This document shows, one piece after another, positions 42,045 through 44,174 of a stretch of DNA of 61,083 nt. Location: contig JAFQQI010000059.1 in assembly GCA_017411305.1 (NCBI GenBank), positions 1 to 61,083 on the forward strand, in the 5' to 3' direction. A program made the position numbers and the translations under genes. This DNA is from Lachnospiraceae bacterium. Lineage in GTDB: Bacteria; Bacillota; Clostridia; Lachnospirales; Lachnospiraceae. Position 1 is the stretch's first letter. The number at the start of each line of letters is the position of its first letter. The notes below the pieces were generated by a model. It ran no database searches. It saw only the letters and a list, made by a program, of their open reading frames with translations, and had not been told where the DNA came from.

Positions 42045-43961
42045 TTAATCTACAAGTTCTTTCATCTGTTCTGCCACACGAACCATGATATCTTCAATCA
42101 CGCCTGCCTGTGCTGCAATTTCCTCGCTGCTGGCTGCAAGTGCTGCTGTCTTTTCATTTACGCGGTAAATATCCTGTAAGAAGGTTTCTACTTCATTCTC
42201 CAGCTTCTCAATTGCAGGAAGAAGCTCATCACTCTTGGTCTTACCTACAATCACGGTTTCCTTTGTTTGGTCAGACAAGTCTCTTACACGGTTCGCAATT
42301 ACTGCAAAGCCTTTACCGGCCTCTCCGCTTCTTGCTGCTTCAATACCTGCATTTAGTGCCAGCATACCTGTCTGATTGGAAATCTTGATAATAGATTCGT
42401 TGACGATATCATAACCGCTTACCGCTTCCTTAAACTGAACCATAGATTCATTCAGCTTATCGGTAAATCCGCTCATCTCGCTAACTGCTTCTGCCATAGC
42501 ACTTGCGTCCTCAGCAGAGCTCTGGTTACCACTTGCAAGCTCTTCCATGGAAAGCTTAATCTTCTCGAATGCTTCCGTAATTTCTGCATAAAGAGCTGCT
42601 TTCTGCTGCTGCTTTTCTTTCAGTTCTTCATGCATACGGTTAATTTCAACCTTTTCAAGTTCCAGTTCACCCTTTAAGTAATGAACACAGTTTTCTTTAC
42701 GGTTAACGCCAAGGGCAACTGCCTTAGCCATCTGGCGACAGCCTTCATAACCGCAGGCACCGCAGTCGATACTCTGTTCCTCTTTGGTAACCTTATTCAT
42801 GCTACGCAGTACATCCTGAATCTGGGATTCGCTGATTTCTTTGATCTTTACTGCCGCATTCTTATTATATGTACACATAAAATCTTCCAACTTTAAGTCT
42901 TTAAACTGCTCGTTTAAATTCTTAAGTCTCTTATCCATATCCAAATCTTTATTCCATGGATTCTTCTTATCCTGAGACTTTCTGACTCTTTCGTTATGGA
43001 TTTCGAATAAGATATCTTCATCTTCTTCTTTTTCAGGTTCGGTAGCCGTACCGTAAATACATCCGCTTCCGCAGTTTAATGCATCTACCATGAAAGGAAG
43101 CTTCTTACCTTCCCGCACACGTTTCGCATAAGTTTCAAGGAAATGATATGCATGCTTTTCGCCTTCAATCTGGCGAATCATCACATCCTTTCCTAAGAAG
43201 TACTCTACATTTTCTTTTAAGCCGCCGGGCTGAGGATATACGCTTCCCAAACCGTATTCAATTTCGTCACCTGCATCATAGCTGCTTAAGTTCATGCCCT
43301 TAAGACGATCCATCAAATGATTAAAGGTAACATTATACTGGATGTAGTCTCTGTTTCCCGGACGGGAGATTTCGGATTTTTTTGCAATACAAGGGCTTAA
43401 GAAAGCCAGCTTGTCAGGTACCTTCATGTATTTTTTCACATAAATGGCACTACACATCATCGGACTGTGTACCGGTACCAGTTTATCTACAAGGTCAGGA
43501 ATATATTTCTCAATGTAATCTACGATTGCCGGACAAGGCTGTGAAATACCACCTGTGAAATTGTACTTGGTAATATAATTTAAATATCCCCATGAAGTAA
43601 TATCCGCACCAAAGCTTACGCTGATAATACGGTTTACACCAAGGCTCTTTAAATAACCGAGAATCTGTCTGTACTGTCTCTTATAATTGGCAATAAATGC
43701 AGGTGCCACAAGCAGACTGATTTTCTCGCCTCTCTTTAAGTCATCTAAAAACTGATCCACGTCATCCTGATAGCTTCTTGCTTTATGATGGCAAACATCC
43801 ATACATGCACCGCAATGCACACAGGCATCTCCGTTTACCCAAATCATATTCTTACCATCCACTTCCGTAGACTGGTTTGCTGTCATTACCGGACATACCG
43901 AAATGCAGCGGTTACATCCCTGACAATTGTCATTTGTAAATACTAATCCCTTTGCAAGCAT
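42045..43961 (-). CDS. [FeFe]-hydrogenase-like sensor fused to chemoreceptor signalling domain
   Basis: A 638-residue soluble multidomain protein. Residues 10-60 hold two 4Fe-4S ferredoxin motifs ([12 protein letters not shown] and [12 protein letters not shown]). Residues 75-310 are the [FeFe]-hydrogenase large domain with the H-cluster cysteines C143, C191, C297 and C301. Loop L1 reads SQPCP where catalytic enzymes read TSCCP, so the proton-transfer Cys is Pro. Residues 400-425 bind another Fe-S cluster (C400, C403, C408, C425). Residues 430-638 are a methyl-accepting-type coiled coil with [20 protein letters not shown]. No membrane span. H2 or redox sensing for chemotaxis is inferred. The ATG at 43961 follows AAGGAG. 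Confidence 0.88.
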
Positions 43962-44174
43962 ATACCTTCTCCTTCGTCTCTTAATCCCAAACCCATTCCA
44001 CAAATACAAAAAAGCGCCTCTGCATTATAACTTAATATGTTATTATTCACAAAGTACGCTTCTTAATTGTTAATATTATAACAGAAATATTACCAAAAGA
44101 CAACGACAATAATGCTATTCTATTGAATAAAATGTATCAAATTGTGAACAATTCTTAATAAACAATAAAAAAAC

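Follow-up and report, generated by a model that had tools for sequence, protein, structure and literature searches.

The stretch of DNA analysed here (the window), positions 1 to 61,083 of contig JAFQQI010000059.1 from a Lachnospiraceae bacterium, carries at 42045..43961 a gene for a 638-aa protein that is predicted to be a soluble chemoreceptor with an [FeFe]-hydrogenase domain. The gene begins with the ATG at 43961 and ends with the stop codon at 42045-42047, and a ribosome-binding-like AAGGAG was read by eye at 43969..43974, 7 nt upstream of the ATG; this and all features of the gene given below lie on the minus strand. The first-pass annotation had described a fusion of two ferredoxin motifs, an [FeFe]-hydrogenase domain, a further Fe-S domain and a soluble methyl-accepting coiled coil, and this architecture was confirmed by Pfam, motifs and hydropathy. 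The protein contains two ferredoxin ([4Fe-4S]) motifs (residues 7-60, 43782..43943; cysteines 13/16/19/23 and 47/50/53/57), the hydrogenase domain or H-domain (residues 81-304, 43050..43721), a C-terminal Fe-S module Cx2Cx4Cx16C (residues 398-426, 42684..42770; C400, C403, C408 and C425; Pfam FeS, E 1.5e-7) and the signalling domain of methyl-accepting chemotaxis proteins (MCPs; residues 514-632, 42066..42422; Pfam PF00015, E 7.5e-17).

Since the highest 19-residue Kyte-Doolittle mean in the 638-aa protein was 1.07, no membrane span is predicted. The descending arm (residues 426-544, 42330..42686) was modelled as a single helix that links the Fe-S module with the hairpin tip (AlphaFold2, mean pLDDT 84.6). 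As a new observation, Cys425, the last ligand of the C-terminal cluster, lies at the root of this signalling helix in the model. As judged from the translation and the model, a hydrogenase-derived head, comprising two N-terminal [4Fe-4S] motifs, the H-domain and a C-terminal [4Fe-4S] motif, passes uninterrupted into a predicted short MCP hairpin. The identity of the protein as a cytoplasmic, membrane-free chemoreceptor is strongly supported.

Group C2 of the [FeFe]-hydrogenases in HydDB is described as 'chemotactic (putative)', acting via methyl-accepting chemotaxis proteins (PMC5037454). The window protein, with an MCPsignal domain in the same chain, matches C2 by architecture as a hydrogenase domain tied to an MCP output and a presumed H2 sensor, and thus appears to be of a catalogued type whose function is putative. 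The annotation mentioned putative sensory hydrogenases with other outputs as known; the MCP-fused kind itself is already represented by C2. Among the matches listed from the open-licence literature, no title indicated a functional study of an MCP-linked or C2 [FeFe]-hydrogenase, of H2 taxis, or of a c-di-GMP or CheX link. H2 and reducing pressure govern gut fermentation, and a 2025 survey placed gut-bacterial sensory hydrogenases among those needing further characterisation (PMC12578642).

Active site of the hydrogenase-derived head

The active-site comparison used an alignment to relatives of groups A, B, C and D, all belonging to the same bacterial family. CpI numbering was carried over via the motifs, the CpI sequence being absent from the alignment, and the group C (n = 4) and group D (n = 2) yardsticks were assigned by us from loops and length. 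The alignment bore out the claims that the H-cluster cysteines C143, C191, C297 and C301 are all kept and that L1 reads SQPCP, with proline for the proton-relay cysteine. In L1 (ISQPCPA, residues 139-145, 43527..43547), Pro142 occupies the place of Cys299 beside the cubane ligand Cys143. In L2 (residues 187-197, 43371..43403), Ser189 stands at the place of Met353, Cys191 is a ligand, and Lys358 is retained as Lys194, while L3 (residues 293-304, 43050..43085) carries Leu295 at the place of Met497 together with the ligands Cys297 and Cys301. A structure unable to hold an H-cluster on these cysteines had been named as grounds for abandoning the idea; the predicted H-domain, modelled as protein without cofactor, agreed with active hydrogenases. 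Lys358, Ser323 and Pro324, which we take to surround the diiron site, correspond to Lys194, Ser166 and Pro167, and these were kept in 65, 64 and 65 of the 65 rows (the 59 rows of the clade described below plus the group C and D rows). The 16 Fe-S cysteines, all eight of the N-terminal ferredoxin motifs among them, were kept in all 65.

The acidic proton-path column of group A holds Trp124 in the window protein. In group D, an alternative proton path includes Glu252 (PMC10407848); in TamHydS numbering, this substitute residue is Leu248 and Glu289 is D293 in the window protein, whereas both group D yardsticks have Glu at both places. Because of Trp124 in the group A column and Leu248 at the Glu252 place, neither reported proton route is present.

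The H-domain fold and the four cubane cysteines place the protein in the [FeFe]-hydrogenase superfamily. Groups A and B did not fit, with SQPCP instead of TSCCP and scores of 82.3 bits (A) and 140.8 bits (B) against curated family cut-offs of 405.95 and 450, and neither did the PAS-bearing group C (M2f), since the Pfam scan found no PAS domain after the Fe-S motif and the protein lies on a separate tree branch. Group D (M2e) was matched in part, by the absence of Cys299 (P142), the replacement of Met353 by a hydroxyl residue (S189) and the Cx2Cx4Cx16C motif (C400-C425), and membership was rejected because Glu252 is absent.

The characterised sensory-type enzymes named in the literature consulted are TmHydS of group C (PMC10055695) and TamHydS of group D (PMC8163306, PMC10407848, PMC13104023). 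For group C1 proteins of Hydrogenedentota, one study reported that H-cluster motifs were hardly to be found (PMC11406978). As TamHydS is described in the passages cited, the window protein shares with it the two N-terminal Fe-S motifs, the C-terminal Cx2Cx4Cx16C, the lack of Cys299 and the changes of Met353 to Ser and Met497 to Leu, but differs in having Pro rather than Ala at 299, Leu248 for the proton-path Glu252, and a fused output domain. It also stood apart in the tree from the two group D yardsticks, the TamHydS sequence itself not being among the rows. Like the PAS-bearing TmHydS, as its source passages present it, the window protein is a putative H2 sensor with a C-terminal Fe-S motif ahead of the output; unlike group C, it lacks PAS and has SQPCP and SPC loops, as against TT(C/S)CP or STCCP and GPC in the four yardsticks.

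Receptor hairpin and chemotaxis partners

In soluble chemoreceptors of the HemAT type, a metal-cofactor head sits directly on an MCP hairpin, without a membrane span. The window protein resembles HemAT, which is named in the abstract of PMC7542364, in this membrane-free arrangement, and differs from it in the hydrogenase fold in place of a globin and in the stimulus. The hairpin tip (residues 533-556, 42294..42365) is by homology the CheA/CheW contact region, and its residues N537, A538, E541, A542, G546, G549, F552 and A556 were invariant across 64 sequences. The candidate methylation site (residues 609-618, 42108..42137), 62 residues beyond the tip, agrees at five of six set positions with a pattern that we take to be the consensus. 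Five or six positions agreed in 83 of 96 closed MCP-type relatives, 78 of these at the same distance from the tip, and the perfect pattern occurred in 62 of the 96, compared with 135 of 9,600 shuffled arms. The window protein thus combines a two-arm helical hairpin and conserved tip with a methylation-type site in its arm and CheA/CheW partners in the genome. Its post-tip arm has 92 residues. Of the 23 MCP matches in the same genome, 22 have a recognised tip and were measured, and 15 of these have arms of 148-156 residues; among the 96 relatives, the length was 92 or 93 in 57.

The draft assembly of the window genome comprises 123 contigs, totals 2.89 Mb and has a completeness of 82.6%. The absence of CheA and CheW had been given as a reason to discard the chemoreceptor idea; both were present, in a flagellar cheB-cheA-cheW-cheC-cheD cluster on contig C66 beside FlhA (identified from a 33-aa stretch), an FlhF-like SRP54-type GTPase and FapA. 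Four Fe_hyd_lg_C proteins were found: besides the window protein there are two of catalytic type and, on contig C72, a 642-aa paralogue of the MCP type. Within L072:3442-8688, this paralogue follows, on the same strand, an Hpt-bearing hybrid kinase and a response regulator, and may therefore have its own two-component partners. Contig C39 (L088) carries a second chemosensory system with two hybrid kinases (one with a DegV domain), an MCP, CheW, CheA, a response regulator, CheB, CheR and an HD-GYP response regulator.

Co-occurrence was determined across a set of 120 family genomes to which the window's own belongs. The 22 genomes with the MCP form were listed from protein matches (in 8 of them the MCP domain is shown by Pfam), and G022 was excluded for its kinase output. 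CheW was present in 22/22 of these genomes versus 43/98 others (p = 2.8e-7), and the maturases HydE, HydF and HydG were all present in 11/22 versus 45/98 (p = 0.81), both values ignoring kinship; seven of the 22 had no maturase and four had some. Within this set of 120, every genome with the MCP form has CheW, whereas the form is not associated with HydEFG, an observation that is new. No HydE, HydF or HydG was recognisable in 38 of 110 genomes with a best Fe_hyd_lg_C match better than 1e-50, including assemblies of only 9-10 contigs (G109, G099).

Of the gene families flanking 33 loci, none was shared by more than five of them or held a fixed place, so operon-based function was not used; in G069 and G072, one such family comes before the kinase form. 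Eight sigma-70-like boxes were counted, a number in keeping with chance (6.7 expected), and those at 44103-44075 and 44052-44024, which belong to this set, were discarded.

The Pro299 clade and its outputs

The tree of 68 H-domains placed the window protein in a clade of 59 rows, distinct from those of groups A, C and D (bootstrap 96, SH-aLRT 91), and all 59 rows have Pro at position 142. These rows were gathered by protein searches without the ISQPCPA pattern. A further 80 public loci were gathered with patterns including it, so that the Gln-Pro agreement among them is by selection; the short ORFs L166 and L128 were removed from this set. Left out of the trees were G105 and G084, which carry an in-frame stop, and the fragment L197. 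The first, quick tree had 70 rows, and the second omitted the long branches B_G000 and G084b. Pro at 299 thus marks a whole sensor clade, set off from the rows of groups A, C and D, which is new.

Two side observations concern the omitted genes. The MCP-form gene carries one in-frame stop in G105 contig C59 and in G084 contig C16 (TGA and TAA), which may reflect either sequencing error or decay. The paralogue G084b (G084 L065:5848-7821, plus strand) is a divergent MCP-fused relative whose L1 reads ANYCS, with Tyr at the Cys299 place (142), and all Fe-S cysteines and the lysine are retained.

Outputs were assigned by Pfam on 9, 10, 10 and 7 proteins, including some neighbouring proteins that lack a hydrogenase domain. 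On the Pro299-type head, Pfam recognised MCP outputs and HisKA-HATPase with REC, sometimes with Hpt, as well as EAL with weak GGDEF (L063:1238-3850, plus strand), GGDEF (L186:1498-3255, plus strand), SpoIIE (L183:1486-3561, plus strand) and MCP-REC (G115). A form of 1125-1127 aa in three genomes (L243:2378-5752, minus strand; L244:2990-6364, plus strand; L245:6645-10025, minus strand) joins the head to Hpt (HTYKG or HTFKG; weak by Pfam), a CheA-like HATPase (RNAVDHG or RNAIDHG) and CheX. Pfam found no CheW-like domain in these three proteins, and a response-regulator gene adjoins each gene. By its domains, this form is a putative sensor, kinase and phosphatase within a single chain. A minimum of nine output changes was counted across the tree, with some labels taken from tip pattern or similarity rather than Pfam.

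Besides MCPs, the head of the clade is joined to histidine kinases, to GGDEF, EAL and SpoIIE domains and to CheA-CheX in one piece, a second new finding. Neither the Cys299-to-Pro clade nor the non-MCP outputs figure in the description of C2 in the passages of PMC5037454 cited here. The EAL, GGDEF and SpoIIE fusions suggest hydrogenase-type control of c-di-GMP and of PP2C-type phosphatases.

Hydrogen or redox state as the probable stimulus

The chemoreceptor most likely responds to H2 or low-potential electrons, so that this gut bacterium may steer by hydrogen gas or by internal electron pressure. On balance we favour H2, sensed via a complete H-cluster, as the primary stimulus of this membrane-free chemoreceptor, with the redox state of the cell as the alternative. 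In the window organism, H2 sensing is the more natural reading because HydE, HydG and HydF are present, encoded consecutively on contig C61. H2 reacting slowly at the H-cluster, or ferredoxin electrons entering via the N-terminal clusters, would set the redox state of the head, and the absence of proton-relay residues would keep turnover low, so that this state could be read out instead of being spent on catalysis. A redox change would then bend or tighten the helix rooted at Cys425 and thereby alter CheA activity at the tip, approximately 120 residues away, with adaptation by CheR/CheB/CheD at Glu613/614. The annotation's proposal of a slow sensory hydrogenase coupled to chemotaxis is well supported in its sensory and chemotactic part by the che cluster, the restriction to CheW-bearing genomes, the tip and the methylation-type site. 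Its H2- or redox-guided motility named the right pair of options.

Several points weigh against the favoured reading. The window MCP domain scored 63 bits, the second weakest by E-value of the 23 in the genome, and is among the most divergent. A search upstream of the gene for a flagellar-sigma promoter, at two spacings and with what we take to be the consensus, found none, and matches overall were at chance level. Cys is kept at the 299 place in three of the four PAS-type group C yardsticks, so its loss is no general mark of sensory types. The [2Fe] subcluster may not be needed, since the MCP-form genomes that lack at least one maturase (11 of 22), including those that lack all three, nonetheless agree in their pocket residues. 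An acetogen survey dropped its group C2 entries at validation (PMC9431212).

A rival reading is a purely redox-sensing receptor, in which the H-domain would carry the cubane alone on its four cysteines and the state of ferredoxin or oxidants would be reported via four [4Fe-4S] clusters, with no H2 chemistry. An apo-enzyme holds only the cubane (PMC6984386), and because the head also persists without HydEFG, this is a serious rival, though we consider it rather doubtful. In its favour, besides the lack of association with HydEFG, the pocket residues of maturase-bearing and maturase-less genomes were equal at 36 positions, with only 168 varying (Met/Leu), in 20 sequences (10 with all three maturases, 7 with none and 3 partial; the stop-bearing G084 and G105 excluded). 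HydG was absent by profile from all seven MCP-form genomes without maturases, and a protein search at E <= 10 found none in six of them (G016, G023, G030, G049, G099 and G115; G072 not in the search), the controls G043 and G089 being matched. Against it stand the conserved diiron-site places Lys194, Ser166 and Pro167, the three maturases in the window's own genome, and the catalytic-type genes. Twenty such genes were read: all 20 have L2 and L3, and the TSCCP pattern was recognised in 15. Among the seven that come from six genomes without the three maturases, all keep L2 and L3 and five show the TSCCP pattern. Since these hydrogenases look intact, an unseen maturation route is possible, the gaps may reflect maturation in the family more than the receptor, and maturase absence was rejected as proof of a [2Fe]-free sensor.

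A broader version of redox sensing, which we put forward only tentatively, is that the Pro299 clade might be a general sensor cartridge derived from hydrogenase, independent of HydEFG, which reads intracellular redox via its four [4Fe-4S] clusters and has been plugged into MCPs, histidine kinases, c-di-GMP enzymes, SpoIIE phosphatases and sensor-CheA-CheX kinases. If this were true, fermenting gut bacteria would steer and switch lifestyle by electron pressure, not by H2 itself. A clade with one fixed active-site change, tight CheW coupling and swapped outputs opens H2 versus redox sensing to direct tests, in which relatives with and without the maturases can serve as natural controls.

Whichever stimulus applies, the receptor might feed the second chemosensory system on contig C39 and control something other than swimming. 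This is unlikely in our view, as the tip is canonical and fits either CheA, and the MCP of the C39 cluster has a long arm of 163 residues; however, the second system is present in the genome, the C72 paralogue adjoins an Hpt-bearing hybrid kinase and a response regulator, and the window receptor may not pack with the main receptors because its arm is short. A separate array class was not adopted from arm length and was retained as a rival only. Finally, a slow hydrogenase whose MCP part is only a dimerisation scaffold would fit the low MCP score, but is highly improbable given the conserved tip and methylation-type site, the replacement of the MCP by other signalling domains in relatives and the occurrence only with CheW.
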